Of a DNA stretch of 64,000 bases, positions 13,261 through 56,000 are shown one piece after another. The first letter of the stretch is position 1. The number at the start of each line of letters is the position of its first letter. The DNA is taken from contig NC_049979.1 in assembly GCF_000003815.2 (NCBI RefSeq), positions 11,068,471 to 11,132,470 on the forward strand, in the 5' to 3' direction. The notes under the pieces are model-generated. The model made no database searches and had not been told where the DNA came from. It was given only the letters and a program-made list of their open reading frames with translations. Position numbers and translations under genes: made by a program. Source of the stretch: Branchiostoma floridae. Taxonomy: Eukaryota > Chordata > Leptocardii > Amphioxiformes > Branchiostomatidae.

Positions 13261-14043
13261 AACAAGAGTTCGTAGACCTCAGATCTCCATGAAATAGTCC
13301 GATCATGCAAATTACTTCCACATTTACATAATCTATGCTTGGTTATGTATACCTTTAAATAACTTATGCCGGTCCAAATGTTGATTGTCCAATGATATAC
13401 CATTGAGAAGAATTATAGCACTTTTATATCAATTATGCAAATTAGGTTTGAATTTGCATAATTGTTATCTGCTAATGTTCCACCAGCCACAAACTACATA
13501 TATTACAGGTATTTGAGTCCTATAATGGAAACCACTACAAATATAGATTTCCCTCATTAATTATGCAAATTAAGTTTGCATAATTTGCACTTAAGGATGT
13601 AACATCTATGTTAAAACTACCTTTATACCAAATAGCATCTAAATGTGTCGTTCTCTTGTTCAGTTATCCTCCTAAGAAGATTTAAAAAAACGCCCTTGCA
13701 GTTCCAGAGCAACCTGCTAGAGGACCCAAACATACACCACCTATTCCTTACGTCATTAGCTATCTGCCACCAAAAAATCAAGACCCCAGCACATCCAGTT
13801 CAAAAGATACAAAAAAAACGAATTTTTGCTGCAGTACCAAGGTCACATACCAGGCGGCCCAAAATTGACCTTGACCTTTGTCTTCCTAACACCTACTTAC
13901 ATACCAAATATCATCGTAATCCATCTAGAGGTTCTTGAGTTATGCTGACCAAAAATATCCGGAAACACAAACACACACGGACACACAGTCAGACAGACAC
14001 ACGGACACACCTAAAACTATATCTCCATTTTTCATGGAGATAA
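13261..14043 (+). mobile_element. Helentron/HINE-like nonautonomous element
   Basis: The element opens with AACAAGAGTTCGTAGACCTC, followed by CTCCATGAAAT. It closes with a short hairpin (CTCCATTTTTCATGGAG) and ATAA. The 5' subterminal CTCCATGAAA is complementary to the 3' TTTCATGGAG. This subterminal inverted repeat with a 3' hairpin is characteristic of Helentron-type elements. The interior is AT-rich with repeated ATTATGCAAATT motifs, and an ACACAC/GACAGACA-rich tract precedes the hairpin. No ORF of transposase or Rep/helicase type is present. A related, longer copy lies at 51684-52770. Confidence 0.6.
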
Positions 14044-33061: not shown

Positions 33062-33649
33062 GACTTGTCCTAGTCCGCCCTGCATGTGCACGACAAGATG
33101 GCAACCCCGGCCCGACCGTTCGTGACGCAAGGTGGGGGCCTCGCGGTCTCACGCTCTGTCTTCCGTATCCTCATTACTGTGCCTGCAAAATGGTAGAGAC
33201 AGTGGTGCCCCCGAAGTGCCCGTTTCCGTGCCTTAATCAACACTTACATGACTATGAAATATTTCCTGTCAGCAGAAGTGTAAAGAAACCTGTATGTGTA
33301 ACATTTACAAAGAACAACGACATGGTGCCGTAATTGCATGATTGACCAGCAGAGACATCTAGCAGTTAATCCACCTACTGCATATCTCAGTGGGAAGGAA
33401 ACTGTGATGTTTAAACGTTAACGTTAACGTATTACAGTGAAAGGTTGTTCTTTTCAGTTAAAATTTTCCCCGAAGTTACACCTCAAGATTCACACAGGGG
33501 CCATAAAGAGGTTTCATATCGCAGCCTGCAGACAGCAGAGTTAGAGAACAGTTGTGATAAACAGTTAACGTTAGAAGTCCGTCATTACCTGCATGTATGC
33601 AGGTATGGTTTTGATGCTGGTGGAAACTTTTCGGTAGCCGGGGATGTAG

Positions 33650-33752
33650 TAGCCTGGGTACCATCCTATTTCTACCGGGGTTCCCTACACTCACTTTTTT
33701 AGGGGTAGCGAGTGTAAGGAGCCCCGGTAGAATACGGATGATACTCAGGCTA
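33650..33752. mobile_element. 103-bp foldback MITE inserted in copy 1
   Basis: The element is a near-perfect inverted repeat from TAGCCTGGGTACCATCC to GGATGATACTCAGGCTA, with arms of about 45 bases. It is flanked by GGGATGTAG on both sides (33641-33649 and 33753-33761). Copy 2 of the surrounding repeat has one GGGATGTAG at the same place and no insert, which confirms a 9-bp target duplication. A diverged relative is at about 39731-39835. Confidence 0.9.
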
Positions 33753-33764
33753 GGGATGTAGGGC

Positions 33765-34340
33765 GCTGTATCTCGTGAACGCATGGTGCGAGCACGACGA
33801 TTTTTGGTACGTGGGTTGGGGGTGGTAGCCTGACACTCAGGTGTGATTTTGGGCCTCCTGGCGCTTGACCTTGACATTGAAGGTGGCATTTTTGGTGTTT
33901 TTGGGGCACTTTTGGCGCTGTGTGTCCGGAACGATACGCGCGATTGCGACGATTTTTGGTGCATGGGTGGGGGGTTGTTGCCTGTTGCCTAGGATTGACT
34001 TTGGGCCTTGTCGCGTTTGAACTTGACCCGGCAGGTCGAATTTTGTGTCCGGGAGGGGTGTTTCCGGAGTTATATCTTCTGAACGGCTGGTGCTGGCGCG
34101 ATGATATTTGGCACATGTGTCGGCGGTGGCTGAATAATGCTCAATTTTGATTTTGGCGCCCTTGGTGCTTGAACTTGACATTTTAGGTTACCTTTTGTGC
34201 GGGCACGGGGCGTGCGCTGTATCTCCGGAACGCAAGGTGCCATTGTGTTGCCATTTGGTACGTGAGTTGTTTGTGGTGTCCTGGTGGTCAGGTTTGATTT
34301 TGGGCCTCCTAGTGCTTGAACTTGATACTGTATAGGTTGA
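33765..34340. repeat. Degenerate 147-bp tandem units inside the 2-kb element
   Basis: Four units begin near 33765, 33915, 34065 and 34213. Each carries a core like TCTCGTGAACG...CGACGATTTTTGGTAC and ends near GCTTGAACTTGAC. The same array recurs in copy 2 from about 45648. The overlapping Arg/Pro-rich ORFs on the minus strand are a by-product of this repeat. Internal tandem repeats are common in HINE elements. Confidence 0.75.
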
Positions 34341-35871
34341 CCCTGTTTTAGTGTGGTTGGGGCATCCTCCCAATATCTGCTTGGTTTTAAAAACAGATGA
34401 TGGTTGGGTGTAGAACCATCATCTGGCCTGGGCCACCTTCAATGTATCAGGTTACTTAGTGGCACTGACAGTTTGCCAGATGACGGGAGTGTGCCAGATT
34501 ATATATCTGTTGGTCAGGTATAATTGGAGTTTGCTTATTACTCTTTGTGGTGTTTCTAGAGCTGTATAGTACTGAGTTTTAAGTTCCGGTACAAGTTCCT
34601 TTACCCTGTTGGCAATCATGGTTGAACTTGAACTTAAACAGAAGAAGATGCAATTTTCTAATGTGGAGGAGAACTGTATAGAGTGTGGGCATAAGAGAAA
34701 GGTATGTGTATGATTTGTCCTGTGTTTCTTTTTGTTTCTTTGGTAATGCCATTTCCATACTGTATACAGGTAATTTGTTGTTTTGGGCTAGTCATATTCG
34801 CTTGGTTTTTGGGCTTGCTTAATCTATGGTACAGGCAGGGTTAAGTGGTGGAGGCTTAGCTTTGTTCTGTTTTAAATTCAGTATCGTTTGTTGCATTTTG
34901 TCGCGGCAAATATATGATGAAATTCCCCTTCTAAGCAACTGCTCATTGGTTTGTGGGGATGTTTGCTGGGTGTTTGCTTTGACTACAACAGCTTCTGAAC
35001 TTTTCAAAGCTTCCATTGCCAGCAGCTTGCCATCTATAAATGGGATTGACAAGGACATTTTTCATAGTAAATTATGCTGTTAAATTTGGCTTAGATACTA
35101 CAGGAGATTTAGGTTTGGGTTGGATGGATTGAATGAAAATATCATACCACCCTGGGGACTAACTGTTGCTGCTGCATGGGGGCTACCACTATTCATGTTG
35201 TCTAATGTCTATGGAACTACAGATAAAAGTATCATTGGTCAAATTATGCGAGTAACATTCCGATGTCAAGTGAATAACACCCCAGAAATAAATCTTTAAT
35301 GAATATCATTGGAAGAACACAAACCAAGGAGACTTAGCAGCTGCATTAGGTCAGTACATTGAAATAGGAAGATATTAGTATATCATGTGACAGAGTAACT
35401 ACATGTGCATGGGCCATCTGAGACAAAAAAAGGTAGCGTCTCAACAACTTCAAAGTACTGTGGTTGGTTACATACTTAAGAAATCCAAAATAAGTAATGT
35501 TCATCCATGTCCAAACTTACAAATTCAGAAAATGGAATTTCAGAGTCAGACTTTTGCATGGTGCACAACCAACACAGTAAAAAGCTCATTTTTCCAACCA
35601 CGTACCACAGACAAAAAGGCAAAAATACACAATAGGTCTACAGAAACCCAATACATTTCATGCAGGCCTGAGGTCTACGAACTCTTGTTCTAGGATGTTC
35701 TCCGCTACACGGCGAACAGAGGCACTGCAGTGCACCACTGCTCAAATGGGGATATTCAGTAACGTTAACATTCGTTAAGATGAAATTAAAACGCCGTGCA
35801 AGTTGCTCGAGTATGAGTTCTAGTTTAGCGGTGGGTCTACAGACGGGTACACCTATTCAAGCTGTATCGGC

Positions 35872-41000: not shown

Positions 41001-44000
41001 GAGATCACGATCCAGTAGAATCGCTGATTCTACTAGTACAGATTGCGATCGGGATCTCTCCTAGGACCAAGTAGGATCTCTTGGAAGATGGATCTCTTGG
41101 AATAGGGTCTGCATGCCTTTTTCCGTTAAGCGTTACGAGCCATTTTAATTCACCGTTAATCGTTACCGACCCGCTCTAATTCAACGTTAATCGTTATCGG
41201 TATATTCATCGTGAAGCGTTATTGGTCGTTTTAATGCAACGTTAATCGTTATTTGTTATCCCGAATTCACCAAGAAATTCTTCGTAACCCGTTATATACA
41301 CGAAGTCTAATGCCAGATAGAACCCCTGAGAATGCAGGAAATGGCGTTTCAAAGGGTCCATGTTTCAAAATTTCTCCGAGGCCCCCGGCCTTCAGCTCCG
41401 GACAGGGTAAAATATGTTGTGGAAGCGTTGCCTTCAAAAACTTTATCACTCATACAGATTTCAGTGTCAAGCTTAGTTTCGGGCAAAAAGTACTCCTAGA
41501 ATGCAGAAAATGAGGTTTCTCCGGATCTCTCTTGCGACGGCTTGCGCCCTTGGCGCTTACGACGACATGGCGAAAATATGTTAGGGGCGTGGGTTTTCGC
41601 ACAAAAAAATCTTTTCTCTCTAATAAAATCTAATTTAGTTTCGTCTCACAGCAAAATCTGTCCTTCAAAAGTCCAGATTTTAAAATTTCCCTGGACTTAT
41701 ATTGCAACGTCTCGTGCCTTCCGAGCTCGAATCTAAATGGTAAAATATGTTGGGGGCTCTGGGGCCAAAGCTATAACCATGTGTGATTTGATGAAAATGT
41801 TAAAATCAACCTAGCTTGGTCGGTCGGCAAAATTTGCCGAAAAATGCAAGAAAAAGCATTTAAGAGGGTCTTGATTTTAAAATTTTCCCGGGGAAGCATA
41901 CCCCCGGACCCCCCTGGGATGCGTCGCGCCTTTGGCGCTCCATGTGCTGAAACGATAGTTCAATCCCTCCATAAGTAATTTGCTACCGCCGTCTCTGTGG
42001 CTGGCCGGGAACTCTAGATCTGCCTCCGTCAATTTACAGATGTCATGGACATTGTCCCTCTCATTCCTCCGGGTTCTGGTCACCTTTTGCTTCTCACAAT
42101 GTCATTAAACGGATATTTTCACCCATTGATATAACTACTCTAGCGCTGTATGAATATGAATGTTACTTAAGTGCTATGCGTTGTAACTCCTTCTGAATTA
42201 ACCGTTAAGCGTTACCGGGCCTCCTGAATTTACCGTTAAGCGTTACCGGGCCTCCTGAATTCACCGTTAAGCGTTACCATGCAGACCCTCTTGTAAGAGC
42301 GGCTAAGGCCAACATGGTATTTTCCAGTTTAAAAATGATGGTTATTGATTGATCGAGTGATTGAACTTTAGATGTTTGAGTCAAACATTGTTTTAAGACC
42401 AAAATTGCTGTCAGTCATGTCAGTCAGTCATGTTCTCTGTAGCATTTGGAGGTCAGAGGTCAAGTTGAAATAAAGATATGGTAGGCCCGCATAACTTGAT
42501 TGTTGTTTAGTTTGCCACATATCCAGCATTCAAATGAAGTCCATCCTTGACACGCTTCTTCTTCTATTACAGGAACATTTTCTGTCAAAAGATCTAAATC
42601 AACTTGTACATGAATCCTCAACCCACCATGGACTTTGGAGGAGTGGGCGTTGACACAGCTGACCAAAGAGGCTGTACAGGCTGTTCTGCTGGTCAGGCTG
42701 GGCTCTGGCCTGCCATGGAGCTGTTGATAACCAGAGGTTCGGGTGTTTACTCAACTGACCAAAGAGGCCGTACAGTACTGCATCTTGTTGCACAGGCAGG
42801 GCACTGCCGAGCTATAGAGCTCTTATTAAACAGAAGGGTGCGTATTCATGCAACGGACCAAAGCGGCCAGACAGCATTACATCATGCTGCCTATGCAGGG
42901 CACTGTCCAGCTATGGAGCTGTTATTGGACAGAGGGGCGAGCATTGATGCAACTGATAAATTAGGCTGTACAGCATTACACCATGCCGCTCAGGCCGGGC
43001 AATGTCCTGCTATGGAGCTGTTATTGGGAAGAGGGTTGTGTGTTGACACAACAGACCGAAGAGGCCGGACAGCACTGCATCATGCTGCTCAAGCAGGGCA
43101 CTGTGGAGCTATGCAGTTGTTGTTGGACAGAGGGGCGAGCATTGACAAAACTGACCATAGAAGCAGGACAGCATTACATCGTGCTGCCTGTGCAGGGCAC
43201 TGCCCAGCTATGGAGCTGTTATTGGGCAGAGGGGCGAGCATTGACGCAACTGATAAAACAGGCTATACAGCTCTGCATCTTGTTGCTCATGCAGGGCACA
43301 GTGGTGCTGTGGAGCTGCTATCCAACAGAGGGGCGAGCGTTGACAAAACTGACCAAAATGGCTGGACAGCATTACATCATGCTGCCTGTGCAGGGCACTG
43401 TCCAGCAATGGAGCTGCTATTGGAAAGAGGTTCAGGTGTGAATACAGCTGACCAAAGAGGCGGTACAGCACTGCATCATGCTGCTCAGACAGGGCACTGT
43501 GACGCTATAGAGTTGCTATTGGGCAGAGGGGCGAGCGTTGACATCACTGACAAAACAGGCCATACAACACTGCATCTTGTTGCTCAGGCAGGGCACTGTC
43601 CAGCTATGGAGCTGTTATTAAACAGAGGGGCGAGCATTGACAAAACTGGCCAAAGAGGCCTGACAGCATTACACCATGCTGCCTATGCAGGGCACTGTCC
43701 TGCTATGGAGCTGTTGTTAGACAGAGGTTTGGGTGTTAACACAACTAACCAAACAGGCCGTACAGCACTGCATCTTGTTGCTCAGGCAGGACACTGTCCA
43801 GCTATGGAGTTGTTATTAAACAGAGGGGCGAGCATTGATGAAACTGACCAAAAAGGCAGGACAGCATTACATCATGCTGCCTATGCAGGGCACTGTCCAG
43901 CTATAGAGCTGTTGTTGGACAGAGGGGTGTGTGTTGACACAAGAGATCAAAGTGGCCGTACAGCACTTCATTATGCTGCCTGTACAGGGCACTGTGGCGC

Positions 44001-47000
44001 TATGGAGCTGTTCTTGGGCAGAGGGATGTTGGACGTTATGGACGTTGACATAACTGACAAAACAGGCCGTACAGCACTGCACCATGCTGCCCAGGCAGGG
44101 CACTGTGGTGCTATGGAGCTGTTGTTGGACAGAGGGGCAGACATCAACATAACTGGCAACTCCAAGCGATCACCTGGCAAGACAGGCCTGACAGCACTTC
44201 ACCTGGCTGCAATCAACAGTCGCTGTGCTGCGATTACCCTTCTCTTGGACCGGGGTGCAAACTTGGAAAAAAGGAACATGCTCGACCAGACAGCACTACA
44301 CTTCGCTGCAAGTAGAGGCGACTGTGACCATGTTGGATTGTTGCTGAATCGAAACTTTGGTGGAGCCAGTGGGCCTTTAATGGACAAAGATCTGTTGACA
44401 GCTCTTCATCAGCAGACCTCTGTGTCTACAGAAGAAGGTCATCGTGTTGCGATCACGCTCTTGTTAGATAGACAAGCGGATATAGATGCTGTTGATCATT
44501 TTGGCTGCACTCCCCTACATTATGCTGCCTTGAAAGGGAGCAATGACCACATTCTCCTCTTGTTGGATAGAGGTGCAGACCTTAATGTGCAGAATAGTTA
44601 TGGTCAGTTTCTACTTCACTCAGCAGCATTGGGCGGGCATAACGATACCATCAATTTGCTGTTAGATCGTGGTGTGGAAATTGAAGCAGAGGAGGTCTCA
44701 GGCAGCACAGCACTCCATCTAGCTGCACGGTACGGACACCAGGAGACTGTCAAGTTGCTGTGTTCATGCGGTGGGAACCTGTCAGCAAAGGACAAGTATG
44801 AGGACTTGACTCCTCTTTTGGAGGCTGCTTCGAACGGACACTGCAATGTTATTGACGTCGCCTTATCATTAGGTGCTACATTGGCTGAGAGGGATTTTGC
44901 TGGCAACTCAGTGCTTCATTGTGTTACAACTCGTGACCCGAACACAGCGCTGAACACTGTTACTCATTTACTGGGTCTGGGTGCGGATGTGAACGCAAGG
45001 AACGAAGTTGGCGAAACAGCGCTTCACCATTTCATTGATTCAGAAGAATGCTCCTTGAAAATGGTAGAAGCATTCCTTCTGGCGGGCACAGACTGTAACC
45101 TGAAGGACATAGATGGTCTGACACTCTATGACGTGGTGCCAGAGGATACAGACCTTCAGAAACTCCTGCTTCATCATCAAAAACATCACCCTGACCTGAA
45201 GAGATTGTGTCGGGCAAAGATCCACAGTGCTCTCCGTAAGAGTGGGCAAGAAGAATCTGAAATCAACCAGTTTGCAATACCCAAAGAACTGAAGGACTAC
45301 CTATTATTCAGAGCTATTTTCTAAGTGCTGTGCAGCCTGCTACTTCCTTGAACAGTTTCAGTAGTTTAGCAAGGCACAAGCTTACAAAGTTCTTTGTACC
45401 AAGTGTTTCGATTGTTATAGTGCTATTATCATCATGTCTATCAAGCTATTTGGTTTCTTTTTAGTTTGCTTTTTGAATAGAATGATAGTCTGACTACATG
45501 TGTTTCTTATGTATCTTTAGTAGTTCTGAGGAACAAGTAATGGGATATTGAAAAAGTCCTGGAGACAACAAATTCCTTTTTACCTGCATGTATGCAGGTA
45601 TGGTTTTGATGCTGGTGGGAACTTTTCGGTAGCCGGGGATGTAGGGCGCTGTATCTCGTGAACGGATGGTGCGAGCACAACGATTTTTGGTACGTGGGTT
45701 GGGGGTGGTAGCCTGACACTCAGGTGTGATTTTGGGCCTCCTGGCGCTTGACCTTGACATTGAAGGTGGCATTTTTGGTGTTTTTGGGGCACTTTTGGCG
45801 CTGTGTGTCCGGAACGATACGCGCGATTGCGACGATTTTTGGTGCATGGGTGGGGGGTTGTTGCCTGTTGCCTAGGATTGACTTTGGGCCTTGTCGCGTT
45901 TGAACTTGACCCGGCAGGTCGAATTTTGTGTCCGGGAGGGGTGTTTCCGGAGTTATATCTTCTGAACGGCTGGTGCTGGCGCGATGATATTTGGCACATG
46001 TGTCGGCGGTGGCTGAATAATGCTCAATTTTGATTTTGGCGCCCTTGGTGCTTGAACTTGACATTTTAGGTTACCTTTTGTGCGGGCACGGGGCGTGCGC
46101 TGTATCTCCGGAATGCAAGGTGCCATTGTGTTGCCATTTGGTACGTGAGTTGTTTGTGGTGTCCTGGTGGTCAGGTTTGATTTTGGGCCTCCTAGTGCTT
46201 GAACTTGATACTGTATAGGTTGACCCTGTTTTAGTGTGGTTGGGGCATCCTCCCAATATCTGCTTGGTTTTAAAAACAGATGATGGTTGGGTGTAGAACC
46301 ATCATCTGGCCTGGGCCACCTTCAATGTATCAGGTTACTTAGTGGCACTGACAGTTTGCCAGATGACGGGAGTGTGCCAGATTATATATCTGTTGGTCAG
46401 GTATAATTGGAGTTTGCTTATTACTCTTTGTGGTGTTTCTAGAGCTGTATAGTACTGAGTTTTAAGTTCCGGTACAAGTTCCTTTACCCTGTTGGCAATC
46501 ATGGTTGAACTTGAACTTAAACAGAAGAAGATGCAATTTTCTAATGTGGAGGAGAACTGTATAGAGTGTGGGCATAAGAGAAAGGTATGTGTATGATTTG
46601 TCCTGTGTTTCTTTTTGTTTCTTTGGTAATGCCATTTCCATACTGTATACAGGTAATTTGTTGTTTTGGGCTAGTCATATTCGCTTGGTTTTTGGGCCTG
46701 CTTAATCTATGGTACAGGCAGGGTTAAGTGGTGGAGGCTTAGCTTTGTTCTGTTTTGAATTCAGTATCGTTGCATTTTGTCGCGGCAAATATATGATGAA
46801 ATTCCCCTTCTAAGCAACTGCTCATTGGTTTGCGGGGATGTTTGCTGGGTGTTTGCTCTGACTACAACAGCTTCTGAACTTTTCAAAGCTTCCATTGCCA
46901 GCAGCTTGCCATCTATAAATGGGATTGACAAGGACATTTTTCATAGTAAATTGTGCTGTTAAATTTGGCTTAGATACTACAGGAGATTTAGGTTTGGGTT

Positions 47001-50000
47001 GGATGGATTGAATGAAAATATCATACCACCCTGGGGACTAACTGTTGCTGCTGCATGGGGGCTACCACTATTCATGTTGTCTAATGTCTATGGAACTACA
47101 GATAAAAGTATCATTGGTCAAATTATGCGAGTAACATTCCGATGTCAAGTGAATAACACCCCAGAAATAAATCTTTAATGAATATCATTGGAAGAACACA
47201 AACCAAGGAGACTTAGCAGCTGCATTAGGTCAGTACATTGAAATAGGAAGATATTAGTATATCATGTGACAGAGTAACTACATGTGCATGGGCCATCTGA
47301 GACAAAAAAAGGTAGCGTCTCAACAACTTCAAAGTACTGTGGTTGGTTACATACTTAAGAAATCCAAAATAAGTAATGTTCATCCATGTCCAAACTTACA
47401 AATTCAGAAAATGGAATTTCAGAGTCAGACTTTTGCATGGTGCACAACCAACACGGTAAAAAGCTCATTTTTCCAACCACGTACCACAGACAAAAAGGCA
47501 AAAATACACAATAGGTCTACAGAAACCCAATACATTTCATGCAGGCCTGAGGTCTACGAACTCTTGTTACTATTTGTATTCCTGCTCCATATGGTTATGT
47601 TTTACGATAAATCTCAAAGATTAAAAAGGGCACATTTCCAATGTTGCTTTACAAAAAGATCCAGGGATCTGATAGCCTTGCGTGTAGTTGTAGAATTGAC
47701 ATTAGTGAAGTAGCCATATGTGTATTTGTAGAAGTGAGATACCCATGAGGGTGAGGTAGCCATGAGTGTATTGTAGAAGCAAGGGGTAGAACTTGGTAGA
47801 AGTGACACTAGTGAGATAGCCGTGAGTCTGGAGAAGGTCGGCTACTTGTATGCGTGACAGGGGTTTAAGCACAGCACATGTGTCACTTAGTCACTTCATT
47901 CCTAAAGAATATAGAAAGAAATGGTAGTACCATTTCTTTCTATAGTCTTTAGGAATGAAGTGACTAAGACCGTAGATTTCTAGGAGTTGATCCAGTGTTG
48001 TGTTCTCACCTGGAGGCGGTACCAAACGCCGTGACCAGGGCCTGGCCTATCCCAGCGATGTACTTGAACGGGTTCTTCCGGGTGAAGATCAGGTAGAGCC
48101 CGGGGAGGATGATGAAGCCGTGAATGGCCAGTCCTGTGTTTACCGTGAGACACAATTGAATAGATTTATGTGAATGAACGAAAGTAAAGTAGACTAAACT
48201 TAACACTGAGACATGTTGAATATAATACAACCCTAGTGCCCAAGATTTGCTGGAGTTCAACTTTCAACGCCAGTAGCACAAGATGTGATCACTGTTTGGT
48301 TATTAGAGAAAGCCAAGGAGACACAACTGTCTAGCCAGCTTACATTCTTTTCGTCTTTGTGTTGATTGAGGTATAGTCAACAAAAAAGTTAAACTAAGGC
48401 CAGGGACAGACGACAAATAATGAGTTACGAAGACAAGTCGTAAAAGTCAAAAGGGCAAGACTAACGTGTCCTGTATGGTATGCCACCACCCCACTAGTTG
48501 CGCTGCAACCACAGAGGCGATCTAATTTGGATTTGTGTATCTATTGACTTCATAATTGAAATATTTTTACAAAATCTAAAAGCGTGACTGGAGATTCGAG
48601 AAAACACCCAAAGTCTAAATAGATACGTTCTATTATCTATGAAATGATGGATCCCTCTGTGAAATCGCTCGCTCGCAGCAATGTCACCGCGTTCTAGATC
48701 TAGTGAGGTGGTGGGAATAATGCAAGTCTACAGGTCAGTTACATCCTTGGTTATATGTATTATTCTGCATGGCTAAGTAGAAAAGGTGACAACAATGATC
48801 TACATTCTTGACGAAAAGCCATTTGCGGCGGGGAGGGTTGAGTCTGACTACAGCGTGTGAATTATCGACCTCAACTACCCCATGGTTCTTTTCGTCTTTC
48901 TGCAGATTGAGACCCTGATTGAAACATAACTCAGAAAGTGAAAATATGCATTAAAATGCGCTTAAAACACCGCCGCAACAGACACACTTATCCATGAGCT
49001 TACCGACGATGACCGTGACCATGTACATGCCGAGCTGCCCCACCAGCTTGAGCGGGTCGATCATCTTCATGATCTTACCTGCGATGAGGAACATGATGCC
49101 GATGGGAGAGTACCTGAGGACGGAAGGCACCACAGGTCTGACATTACGTGAACTATCTCCTACCATATGCTTTATTCTTAGGCCATGTTGATTTGATTAT
49201 ATGGATGTCATCGTCGTGCTCATCAATGTTAGGATACTGTAGATATCGCTCAAAATAAGCAAATATATTACGTACGTTGATTACAGAAACATGTCGCAAA
49301 ACGTATGCTAATGACATAAATTATTCAAAGATCAAAGAAGATGTTAAAGAACAAAAATGAAGAATGTATTGCTCGGTATGGTATAGCTATATTCGGTGTG
49401 TTCAGTCACTTGTTCAACGTTGCTGACCACTTACAATGAATGCAACTCTTTTTTTTTGGGCGGGGGGGGGCAAACTTTTTTATTTGCACGCTCGCATCAG
49501 TTTTGGGGCTCTCAGAGATGTAAAGACAAAAAATTAAGCCACATGGCATTATATAATTCTTCATTTTTCAGCCATAACTTTCCATCAACTTTTCTAGAAG
49601 CTTACCACATGATGAGGTAGACCAGCGTCATGATACAGTCGTTGAAGATGGTGAAGACCTGGACCAGAGGCTTGCCCTTCTCGCCCATACGGCCCAACAC
49701 CACCCCGAAGAAGATGGAGAAGGTGATGATGCCCAGAACGTTCAAACGGTTCAGATAGCTATGGTCAGGAAAAAAAGATCGCTGCATGGTCAATATTGTT
49801 CAAGGTATAGGTTCTAGACCACATGGTTTTGATTCTACAGTCTTCGTATGATCGATATGGGCGTCATCGAGATAGGTCGTTCAGTGTAATATAACCAGCT
49901 GCTGCCGCGCCAAGTGTCTGTGAAACTGATGCGTTACTGGCGCCGATGGACGATTATACTGGCTGTACTAGTACAAATATACTGTAATAAGTGGCTTATG

Positions 50001-53000
50001 AACATGAATTTCACTATAGATTACTGATTGATTTAGAAATAGTATATCGGACTCCAAGTAACCTAGATTAATATTTTAGGTATGTTTTGCAGGTCTTCAC
50101 AAATATTATTTATTTATTTTTTGTTTACTTACCCTCCTTGCTTCACATACACCGTGATCTCCTCTGGGATGGCGGTAACGTTAGTCATCATGGTGGTGAA
50201 GGCGGCGGCCGTGGCGGTGATGTTGGGAGGGGTGTAGGCCGGGTTTGGCTTGGTTTGTGCCACGATCTGCGTGTTGTACTGCAACATGGACGTGACAAAC
50301 GTTCGTTCATTCGCCCTTAATATTGCCTAATGGCACCAAGTGCAGCAGGTTTCCTTACTATTTCAGTAGCAGGTTTTTTTTAGGGAGGAATCGTTAGTCT
50401 TTCCCCCTTTAACGTGCGCACTTCCTCGTACGCGGGACCCGAATTTTATGGATGATATCCGCGCATGCATAAGTTTTCTCCTGTTCTAAAAAATCCATCT
50501 CCTACGAGGCTCAACGCAAGTCCGGAGCTTGCCGCAAAGGGCAGCATGTGCTAGCTTGCGTAAAACTCGATACGCACTACCACAAACCGTGCTAATTTTA
50601 TCAAACTCTTGGTCTAACTGCCCCTACTTGAGAATTTCACAAGAACGATCAAAGAAGTACACTATCAGAAGGTATATCAAATATCAATTACGTCAACTGA
50701 GTCATAGTGAATGCGCCTCATGCATACAAATACTTGTTGCTTCCTGTAAATACACTGTGTTCTGTGGTTAAATTCCTAACATCAGACTTTGTTCTCCTGT
50801 GGTTCCACCGCATTTTTATGTTGTTGCTGGATTTATTTCACCCTCCCGCATTAGTTTCGGGGTCTCCAGACGATGTCACCACCAATCACCACATAAATTC
50901 TCAAGTGCTGAATCCATTTTGTTCCCTGTGAATATTTCTGACCACCCCTTCAAAATGGAATAAACCTCGTGGAAACAATTACAGTACAGAAAACTTACCG
51001 ACTGGAAGCAGGCCTGCGCAATGTTGTCTGGAAACATATTCCTGTGACAAATGCATAAAAAACCTAAAATATGAAAAAGTACATTACGACAACTCCTTTG
51101 GCTTTTGGGAAAGTTTGACCTTTCTTCAGATTACAAACCATTCCAGAGTGGGATGCCCTGCCTGGCACGGTGGTGATTGCTCCCACCGTTAAGAACTTCC
51201 GCGCCAGGCAGCTGAGAGCTGCCCGCCCTAACTCGGGACCTTCTATGTTACCCCTTGCGGGGCTATTTGTGGGTACTTAAGAAGAAGAAGAAGTAGACTG
51301 GAATATAATTTGAAATGTAAACGTATGACTGAAAAACTACATTACGACAAATACTTTGTGTAAGTTTAACCTTTCTTCAAATTACAAATGTGAACGTATG
51401 ACCAATTCAGCAACAACCACAGAAAGCGTAAAATGATTCCTTCTTGTGCGTACTCCCAAATCCATTGGATTTCGTAGAATTTCGTACGGAGGTGGTACTA
51501 ACCATTTACGGATCACAAAAGATTGCCCACGTTTTTGCAGGTAGATCGCACGCAGTTGCAAGTACAGCGGGTTGTGCCCTTAGCTTAAGATAATTATCTT
51601 AAGTTAGCTTAAGATAATTATCTTAAGTCGAAAAATACTCTTGCGCAAACCAATGGCTCGCCAGAGCCTGTAATTACTAGCACAACTAGAGTTCGGCGAC
51701 CTCATACCTCCATGAAAATTTAAAGCTTTCGTAAATTTCATGCAATTGACTAAGACATTAACATAATGTATGCATGGTGTTGTTAATCATTGACTAACGT
51801 TCACATGTCACAATTATAAAATTCCCATTATTAATCATAAAGAGGTTTTGCAATTTTTACATAAATTATGCAAATAAGTTCCTCATTACCATATTTGGTA
51901 TCTGCTTATATTCCACCTATCATAATTAACATGTGTTACATGTATTGAGGTCCATTTATTGAAAACAATGGAACTGTACAATTTCCTCATTAATTATGCA
52001 AATTCAGTCATCATTTGCATAACATGTATATCATTATGAACATCTTTGCCTAAGCTACCTGTATGCCTAAAATGCAGGCAATCCGTCGTTCCTTTCTGCA
52101 GTTATCCTCTTTGGAGTGTCTTGACAAAAACGCCCCTGCAGTTCCACAATTGAATGTTAGGGGACTGAAACTTGCCCCACTTTGTCATGACGCTAAAAGC
52201 TATCAACCACCCAAATGTCACGACCATATCACGTCCGGGACAAGAGATACATTGAAAAAACTGCTATGATAGAATATTCTCATTAATTATGCAAATGTAC
52301 TCCTATTTTGCATAATTAGTATTTTATCTTGTACAACATTGTCTAAGGTACCTACATACCAAAAATCATGAAAATCCGTTATTCCCTTCTTGAGTTATCC
52401 TCGTCAGAAGTTTTTGACAAAAATGCCCCTGCTATCCCAAAACTAGACGCTAGGGGGCCCAAACTTATGTCATTTTTTCCTGAGCACAAGAACTATCTAA
52501 TACTTAAAAATCTTGACCATAGCATGTTCAGAACACCGAGATAGCAAAACCGGAAGTTGCGCTGCAGTACCAAGGTCACACACCAGGGGGCCCAAAATTG
52601 ACCTTGACCTTTGTCTTCCCAACCCCTACCCACATACCAAATATCATCGTAGTCCATCAAGAGATTCTCAAGTTATGCTGACCACAATATGCGGTCACAC
52701 AGACAGACACACACACAGACACACACACAGACACACTCAAAACTATACCTCCATTTTTTCATGGAGGTAATAAGTCAACGACTGTGGTCAGACTCAAACA
52801 TTGATCCGGCTCATTGTTGTTACCTTTTCCACTCAACCATGCAAAATAATACATGTAACCAAGGACACTATGATATATAAACGTCCTTGATGTAACTGGA
52901 CTAGAGGCATGCATTGTAGTAATGCATGATAGTAATGACTAATGTCTCATTGGTCATATCGAAAAATCTCATAATCATTAGTTATATCGAAATTTTAAAT

Positions 53001-56000
53001 GACCATCAATACTCTACGACAAATCTGGCGCAAACCAATTATCACGGGGTCGTTGGTGCACGATAATTCACCCGCTTAGGTTAGTCGCTACCATGTCTGA
53101 CCGCAAATGGCACTTCGCCAAGGATGCAGCTCATTGTTGTTACATTTTCCACTCAAGCACGCAGAATACGATATATCATGCCATTGATGTCACTGAACTG
53201 CAGGATTGCATTCTTTACACCCAATTCTACTAGGACGCAGTCNNNNNNNNNNNNNNNNNNNNNNNNNNNNNNNNNNNNNNNNNNNNNNNNNNNNNNNNNN
53301 NNNNNNNNNNNNNNNNNNNNNNNNNNNNNNNNNNNNNNNNNNCATATCCAGTTGCTTGAGTACTATTTTTGGCGTATGATTCCTTCTTTGTCTATGAAAT
53401 TCGTTGATTACTCTGTCAAATCGTTCGCTCCCAGTCAGGTGACTGCGTCCTAGTAGAATTGGGTGTAAAGAATGCAATCCTGCAGTTCAGTGACATCAAG
53501 GGTATTATATATCTTATTCTGCGTGCTTGAGTGGAAAATGTAACAACAATGAGCTGCATCCTTGGCGAAGTGCCATTTGCGGTCAGAGATGGTAGCGACT
53601 AACCTAAGCGGATGAATTATCGTGCACCAACGACCCCGTGATAATTGGTTTGCGCCAGATTTGTCGTAGAGTATTGATGGTCATTTAAAATTTCGATATA
53701 ACTAATGATTATGAGATTTTTCGATATGACCAATGAGACATTAGTCATTACTATCATGCATTACTACAATGCATGCCTCTAGTCCAGTTACATCAAGGAC
53801 GTTTATATCTCATAGTGTCCTAAGCTTGGTTACATGTATTATTTTGCATGGTTGAGTGGAAAAGGTAACAACAATGAGCCGGATCAATGTTTGAGTCTGA
53901 CCACAGTCGTTGACTTATTGTGCTAGTAATTACAGGCTCTGGCGAGCCATTGGTTTGCGCCAGAGTATTTTTCGACTTAAGATAATTATCTTAAGCTAAC
54001 TTAAGATAATTATCTTAAGCTAAGGGCACAACCCGCTGTACTTGCAACTGCGTGCTATCTACCTGCAAAAACGTGGGCAATCTTTTGTGATCTGTAAATG
54101 GTAAGTACCACCTCCGTACGAAATTCTACGAAATCCAATGGATTTGGGAGTACGCACACACGCCGTAGTATGTTAATTAATTCTCAACTTTCTCTGCGTT
54201 AGGGCTGCGGATTCCCCCTGCGGATTCACCCCGCGCGTCCCGCACAGCGAATAGATTTAGTAAGGAAGCCCTACGTAAGCAGCACGTGTAAGTACGGCCT
54301 GCATACGGTAGCGTGGCAATCGCACAGAGATAGAACGTACAACTCACTACTTGCGAAACGAACGATGCAGGCAACCACTCACGGCCGGGCGTGGCATGCA
54401 AACCACATACTTATATCTTGCGCAACCGTGCAAGTGACGTGCGTTGAGACGTACAGTACTCCCTCCCTGCTCTTGCCATTCCTTCCCCACGTTTTCAGGA
54501 AAACTCCAAGAAACAAACGTACGGAAAAATAACACGTGAGTTGTCGGAGACAAAGAATATGGTGTTTATAATTGCCCATCTCTGCGTGGTTCTATCTTAG
54601 AGGTGCTAAAACACCAAAGATTTGTGTCGCCTCATGATTAACATCCTTTTATCGAGTAATATTTAAACTAATCATCATCTGCAGAATAGCTAATGTTAGT
54701 TCACGCTGAAGTGGAAAATATGAAATCAATGCAAGGTGCGATGCGAGCATGGTTGGTCTAAGTAGCGAATGTATGGTACTGGATCGTGTATAATTTCTTT
54801 AAGGTCACAGTTTTTCCACTCCGAGGAATATTTTCCACATAGCAGAGCACATTTATAAAACGCTACGGAAACAGCAGTATAACACACAGACCATCGGCCT
54901 CACCTGATGAGGTCCAGGAAGGAATCTGCAGCGCTGACCCTGCGGGAACTGCCCGCCCTCTCGATCTTGCTGGGATCGCCCTTCCCAGGGTGGATGCTCA
55001 CCACTAGGATGATGCCTGACATCAATAAATAAGATTTTCAGACAACTACAATCTCTCAAGAGCATACCAACAAATGGCGTTGAAGGTTGAAGTTCATTAC
55101 TGGTTACGGGAGACTTGAGCCTCAACATACGTAAAAGATACAGTTTAGAGCACAAATCATGCGTCAATCTCGAAAGATAGAAGCATTTTTGATTAACACC
55201 CTAGAAGTTTGGCACAGGTTTGTCAACTGCCATTTTGAATAATCTGGTACTAATCATTTGGAGACTTTTCATAGGCATATACAGCTGAAAATCATGATTG
55301 TATGTGTAAAAGCAAGCACCTATGATAACGGCGATCAGAGTGGTGCCGGCGTAGTACGCCACCGCACGCCCTCCCAGCCTGCCGGAGGTCTTGGCGTCCA
55401 GAGCGGCCAGGGCAGAGATGATACTGCAGAGGATGAGCGGCAGGATCATGCTCTTCAGCATCCTGATGAACAGCTCCCCCGGGAAGGAGAAATAGTCGAT
55501 GTTCTGGAAATATTACAAGACATGAAGGCATGGTGTAATCAATGATTTTCATGAAGTAAGTGGAGTTAAAATTTTTTTTTTAGGTGACCCTACCTCTGGA
55601 CCAATTGTAATTGTCTGTAATTATCGCCCACCTGTTGTAGCTATGGCTACATTAAATGGTTACAACCCAGGTGTTACGCCGCGGTCTACTGTCCATTGTG
55701 CTTATCAAAGATATCTAAGGAAACTTCTCAGGTACAGTGAGTCTGTCGTATGGCTGTATATACCCTTTTCTCTTTTCTGTGACGATCAGTGGAAGAAACG
55801 AGCTAAACCCGAGATCATTTTCAACTTCATGACAAGATAGTGACGAAGACCCTCCCCTTACCTCATCAGACAGGTTGGCCATGCGCATGAGGAACCCCAT
55901 GAGGATCCCCAGCCCCACTCCCAGGATGGTCAGGAGCAGGAGGAGGTTTTCCTTGAGAGCGTGCTTGCACATCTGTCCCCGAGAAGGCCCGGGGTCCACA

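Follow-up and report, generated by a model that had tools for sequence, protein, structure and literature searches.

The window analysed here, a 64,000-nucleotide stretch of the Branchiostoma floridae genome (contig NC_049979.1, positions 11,068,471 to 11,132,470), contains a large inverted repeat at 51445-54158, whose loop includes a run of exactly 100 N (53243-53342). One arm carries a 1.09-kb element on the minus strand (51684-52770, TT at both ends included), delimited by comparison with the other arm, which retains the empty site TTATT on the plus strand (53915-53919, the TT itself being 53918-53919). Element, filled arm and empty arm all lie as the initial annotation had described. The filled site reads CAC-AA-CTAG...GGT-AA-TAAGTC and the empty site CAC-AA-TAAGTC, with AA (TT on the minus strand) common to both and nothing longer; this is a single same-locus pair (n = 1), and insertion between T and T is indistinguishable from a 2-bp TT duplication. 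Aligned with the other arm, the joined flanks of the filled site show 11 mismatches and 7 gap columns in 720 columns; two of these gap columns reflect the shared AA, which was entered twice in the joined query. Given this divergence and the 100-N loop, the inverted repeat may have arisen in assembly, from two haplotypes placed head to head, and the empty site holds in either case.

In its 5' to 3' order, which is that of the minus strand, the element comprises TT, a 5' hairpin with an inverted repeat, a microsatellite, two repeats of ~293 bp, a 3' inverted repeat, a weak 3' hairpin, CTAG and TT. Its 5' side runs TT-ACCTCCATGAAAAAATGGAGGTATAG, forming the 5' hairpin, and then into a GT/GTCT microsatellite (GTGT/GTCT on the minus strand, 52695-52736, limits approximate). 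The terminal hairpin itself, TACCTCCATGAAAAAATGGAGGTA (52746-52769), folds as DNA at -7.4 kcal/mol with a z of -4.67, none of 200 shuffles being as good, and contains the 5' inverted repeat (ATIR or subTIR) TACCTCCATGAAAA at 52756-52769. In all 14 bases this repeat is the reverse complement of the 3' inverted repeat TTTTCATGGAGGTA (51705-51718), which is unchanged across full-length copies bar single changes in a few, and which is followed by 19 bases ending in CTAG. The two internal units (52251-52543 and then 51958-52249 in the true orientation), delimited by alignment to each other, are 68.9% alike over 293 columns.

The 3' side runs TTTTCATGGAGGTA, T, GAGGTCGCCGAACTC, TAG-TT, in which GAGGTCGCCGAACTC is the 3' hairpin, GAGGTC-GCC-GAACTC with one mismatch (51689-51703). 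As a single-sequence fold it is no better than shuffles (z -0.10, 80 of 200 as good); by eye, the shape GAGGTC-NNN-GAACTC recurs in related 3' ends. The element closes with CTAG and then TT (51684-51689), which fits T-N-G-T^T and is conserved as CTAGTT in all 35 full-length copies described below. The initial annotation had proposed a Helentron-like element read on the plus strand; the Helentron assignment stands, whilst the plus-strand reading was rejected, since the flanks would then be A and A, against the Helentron rule, and the anatomy fits on the minus strand. The strong hairpin which it had placed at the 3' end is accordingly real but marks the true 5' end, and the weak one near the true 3' end had been missed. 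Internal TTGCCTGCAT.. hairpins, considered as possible ends, were rejected because they lie inside the element, and were left out of the counts.

The short motif TACCTCCATG is by itself little proof, matching the window eight times with at most one mismatch as against 3.93 expected, a number reached by 5 of 100 shuffles; the element as a whole is not a product of chance, as is evident from its genome copies and from exact counts of the 3' end. A search of the 513-Mb genome returned at least 48 matches to the window element. The copies examined came from 39 places with flanks and eight loci from the search, L002-L008 being left out as duplicates of L041-L047, and 35 full-length copies in 34 loci, the window copy included, reached both ends of the query (copies short of either end were excluded from the end counts). 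The two-A ambiguity without longer target duplication, proposed at the outset, is borne out by the empty site and by these copies, which share TT alone at both ends (28/35) or TTT (7/35) rather than being consistently flanked by a duplication of 3 bp or more. Of the 35, 34 are at least 93.7% identical to the window copy and the remaining one 91.8%; divergence from the consensus of the 35 has a median of 1.0% (range 0.37-6.3%) and is 0.74% for the window copy, so that, judged by divergence, the family is young and the window copy recent. Their 15-base flanks are no more alike than shuffled pairs, the longest common word averaging 3.71 versus 3.51 (sd 0.15). The 21-base 3' end of the related subfamilies that terminate in CTTG has 510 exact genome matches (259 + 251), as against 0 + 0 for the reversed control.

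Some copies occur in composite arrangements. In two loci (L013:601-2733 and L021:601-2737, true orientation) the HINE, as we term the non-autonomous Helentron in the window, forms a tandem dimer with the body of a related element; the dimers are 94.5% identical over 2147 columns and have different outer flanks. The dimer thus seems to have moved as one unit past its internal 3' end, and its presence at two loci fits 3'-end bypass, that is, replication past one 3' end to the next. Before the HINE of L013 (477-600, true orientation) stands a 31-base 5'-hairpin unit of a related family, repeated head to tail four times, and the spot behind such a hairpin (TATAT^TT) has received insertions in L013, L029 and L039.

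All four copies that had been reported in the window proved real, the other three being relatives of the element at 51684-52770. An older relative on the minus strand (13261-14043) has the 5' hairpin TATCTCCATG.. and the 3' end CTTGTT. On the plus strand, 33585-35689 belongs to another subfamily, with the hairpin TACCTGCAT/ATGCAGGTA and the same CTTGTT end, and the same subfamily is represented again at 45580-47568, where the insertion site is unrelated (T-T-T-T^T); across 1989 aligned bases the two copies show 10 mismatches, besides two gaps of 112 and 4 bases. The 112 bases, present at 33641-33752 in the first copy and missing from the second, themselves form a small element whose ends are inverted (TAGCCTG.../...CAGGCTA), with a repeat of GGGATGTAG flanking it. 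Across these related window copies the inverted repeat is altered (TATCTCC, TACCTGC), its hairpin partner is altered along with it, and the 3' repeat tracks the 5' change, imperfectly in the 33585 copy. Comparison of the latter with those proteins tried from two further Helentron families (A and G) gave no significant match (best E 3.3). The window also holds a long open frame (42598-45324) of 908 codons in which a 99-base unit is repeated, and which resembles ankyrin repeats.

An autonomous partner was sought amongst genomic Rep sequences, of which there are 79 matches to Helitron_like_N (PF14214). CTTG-type 3' ends were listed at 100 of the 510 places, on contigs C1-C3, and the lists compared by eye; among the matches listed, two of 18 Rep hits on these contigs have a CTTG end at most 15 kb downstream on the same strand, namely C1:25210274 (8 kb, 3' end match at C1:25218247) and C3:2482810 (G family, CTTGTT end 10.7 kb downstream). 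The former lies within C1:25204709-25218267, a 13.6-kb element that is the probable autonomous relative of the window element. It was read in pieces, with 25206300-25208773 and 25212350-25214899 outside the sequence read; its 5' end was found in a 2-kb stretch chosen by guess from distances in an element on contig C5 (see below), and its 3' end is ...TTTCATGGAGGTATGAGGTCTACGAACTCTTG-TT at 25218267. The Rep region is split between two frames, with DUF6570 and Helitron_like_N domains detected in one piece (L077). The second frame of this piece, which matches no Pfam family, contains PHAH and YVTSYMMK, which we take to be the HUH and two-tyrosine motifs. Another piece (L088) has an open frame of 845 aa with PIF1 (8.2e-24) and Exo_endo_phos (6.3e-10) domains, a frame that seems to run on to a stop ~40 bases into the piece L087.

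At their 5' ends the C1 and window elements are identical over the first 28 bases, match at 57 of the first 60, and remain 89.2% identical over the first 1047 columns, an alignment lacking only the last 71 bases of the HINE; the C1 element also has a microsatellite-like tract at the place matching that of the window element. At the 3' ends, both of which contain TTTCATGGAGGTA, 31 of the last 35 bases agree, the C1 element ending in CTTG and the window element in CTAG. As described in PMC4067079, members of a family share at least 11 identical subTIR bases, and members of a subfamily at least 80% identity over the last 60 bases. The two elements share at least 11 subTIR bases, and their last 60 bases agree in 48 of 63 columns (76%), below the subfamily threshold, so that by the published rule they would belong to the same family and to different subfamilies. 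The 13261 copy in the window matches the C1 3' end at 52 of its last 60 bases, and the C1 3' region at 75% over 192 columns. The matches at both ends suggest that the window element is a deletion derivative of the C1 lineage, in which ~1.0 kb from the 5' end and ~70 bases from the 3' end are left of a ~13.6-kb Helentron. The search for a partner with Rep, helicase and endonuclease domains and the same ends, suggested by the initial annotation, was therefore successful in the C1 element, albeit one read in pieces with two stretches left out.

Other Helentron families are present in the genome. An E-family element on the minus strand of contig C5 (20609866-20621310) has ends of the same kind, with 12-base inverted repeats, starting TTACCTTCGCCAAGAAGGTTATA and ending TTTGGCGAAGGTATGGGGTCGTGGAACTCTAG-TT; the target T discussed below is present in its 5' flank. 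It contains a Rep hit and an endonuclease domain ~1.1 kb before the 3' end (L084), and OTU and DUF6570 were scored on its sister on C8 (L072). The element has N gaps (2013 N in L086) and was scanned in parts, helicase not being among the parts scanned. An A-family Helentron (L078/L079, C10:2097001-2114000) has OTU, DUF6570, Rep, PIF1 and endonuclease domains; as a direct partner, this element (C10:2103581) was rejected for its different end sequence. Arrays of 162-bp repeats and several hairpin-plus-CTAGT ends were seen near it. For the H family (L085), the 3'-end pattern had no match in the 5 kb read. A partner bearing a DDE transposase had been named at the outset as evidence that would speak against a Helentron, and no DDE domain was reported in the scanned parts of the Helentrons, the C1 element included.

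The target had initially been given as TT. That TT is shared was upheld, but these two letters are not the full target, as a T further out is nearly invariant. At the window element the 5' target side reads T-T-A-TT (52769-52773, minus strand), and a T three bases before the 5' TT is found in 35 of 35 full-length copies, the base adjoining the TT being A in 20, T in 11, G in 4 and C in none. For a wider count we collected 50 unique 12-base flanks of 5' ends matching chosen hairpin patterns, reduced to 49 by excluding one nested hot spot common to several copies (target T present). The T occurs in 40 of 40 unique flanks behind the 5' hairpin of the window family, the C1 Helentron included, and in 48 of 49 with all families counted, one of the 48 (L039 at 1733) following a different hairpin within the same array and the sole exception being the 14043 end of the older window copy; it is also absent at a diverged hairpin outside the patterns counted (L013 at 4425).

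Since the empty site in the window already has this T, there it belongs to the target, and a paralogous pair agrees: L039 reads TATAT-TT-element-TT-TACCC where a further copy of the host repeat has TATATTTTACCCC. At the 3' side, both CTAGT^T and CTTGT^T match T-N-G-T^T. The target appears to be T-N-(A/T/G)-T^T, a pattern that the 3' junction of the element also follows. Published accounts describe insertion of FoHeli1/2 of Fusarium oxysporum after TNAT, the base after the cut being given as T in a figure legend and as A in the text (PMC5148889), and of Chlamydomonas Helitron-1N1 after TTTT (PMC3627910).

These features allow a movement mechanism to be proposed, which starts from what can be read in the DNA itself, namely the termini of the element, its insertion in TT with no longer duplication, the T that is nearly invariant in the target, and the probable partner's shared ends and its domains. 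The partner's Rep, with its putative HUH and two-tyrosine motifs, would nick T-N-D-T^T at the donor 5' junction, and the PIF1 helicase would peel the strand off whilst replication fills in. The 3' inverted repeat could then pair with the 5' one, opening the 5' hairpin and marking the end, an idea put forward for such pairing by Bao and Jurka (PMC3627910). A second cut by Rep at the 3' end (TNGT^T) would be followed by joining of the strand to a new T-N-D-T^T site. Because a single motif fits the three cut sites, no target bases would need to be duplicated. That a Helentron Rep acts on a single motif, T-N-D-T^T, at the donor 5' junction, the element 3' end (CTAGT^T, CTTGT^T) and the target is a tentative reading, to which we would give slightly less than an even chance.

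We consider it very probable that 51684-52770 is a non-autonomous Helentron (HINE) on the minus strand, a short element free of genes that most likely uses rolling-circle machinery borrowed from a larger Helentron of the same genome. The original proposal of a Helentron-like insertion is supported by the ends, by insertion in TT without longer duplication, and by a Rep/helicase/endonuclease element with like ends. Several known features of HINEs are present: insertion in TT without target duplication, subterminal inverted repeats within the ~11-15 bp range (14 bases at 51705-51718 and 52756-52769), a 5' complementary repeat that forms a hairpin (z -4.67), and a partner with Rep, helicase, endonuclease and the same ends (on C1, read in pieces). 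An element of Helitron2 type, without an endonuclease, might instead move the window element, which would then be a Helitron2 derivative. Inverted repeats and a 5' hairpin are common to Helitron2 and Helentrons, the distance of the 3' repeat from the end is closer to that of Helitron2, and no autonomous element was found that combines this inverted repeat with the exact CTAG end. Both Rep elements with read, matching ends (L088 on C1 and L084 on C5) nevertheless carry an endonuclease, and we regard this derivation as improbable.

Short inverted repeats and a shared TT would also be expected if the element were a MITE derived from a DDE transposon that duplicates 2 bp of target (TT/AA). However, the repeats are asymmetric, terminal on the 5' side but set 19 bases in from the 3' end, the invariant T falls beyond the shared TT, no duplication exceeds TT or TTT, and like ends flank Rep/helicase/endonuclease genes, all of which make such an origin hardly credible. 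Equally remote is a canonical Helitron (Helitron1): whilst CTAG fits CTRR and is preceded by a weak hairpin, the 5' end is TTACC without a 5'-TC, insertion is at T^T and not A^T, and the 5' hairpin has inverted repeats.

The HINE assignment agrees with descriptions of HINE/DINE-1 (PMC4067079) and of Cg_HINE of oyster (PMC7492417), which likewise have subterminal inverted repeats, a 5' complementary repeat, a microsatellite, central repeats, a TT target without duplication, and a Rep/helicase/endonuclease partner. The window element differs in its target, extended to T-N-D-T^T, in the weakness of its candidate for the 3' palindrome that HINEs have, and in the position of its 3' repeat, 19 bases from the end as against ~38-60 described for mite HINEs (PMC4067079). 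With Helitron2, as described by Bao and Jurka in 2013 (PMC3627910), it shares asymmetric terminal inverted repeats, a 5' hairpin using the 5' repeat, a 5' T, compensatory changes between repeats and a 3' repeat ~20 bases from the end, the repeats of Helitron2 lying 0-2 bp (5') and ~20-30 bp (3') from the respective ends; unlike Helitron2, which is described as lacking an endonuclease (PMC4067079), its probable partner has one. FoHeli1/2 resemble it in the TNAT target side before the 5' end and in asymmetric inverted repeats, but are fungal and reported without an endonuclease (PMC5148889). The proto-Helentron of Phytophthora infestans shares the 5' TT and 3' CTAG, but inserts between A and T and is seen as a stage before endonuclease gain (PMC4067079).

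By anatomy and probable partner, then, the element is an ordinary HINE of a known class, and one literature search found no paper on a Helentron in amphioxus. The fresh points are a well-resolved filled/empty pair, a candidate partner in the same genome and a nearly invariant outer target T; one animal genome contains a young HINE, the matching empty site and a probable autonomous Helentron whose ends are the same. With the outer T, seen in all 40 unique flanks behind the window family's 5' hairpin, a target known vaguely as T-rich becomes a cleavage motif that can be tested. Should the one-motif reading prove true, it would directly account for the missing target duplication, and a single cleavage site would underlie the targets given as TT for Helentrons, TNAT for Fusarium Helitrons and TTTT for Chlamydomonas Helitron2.
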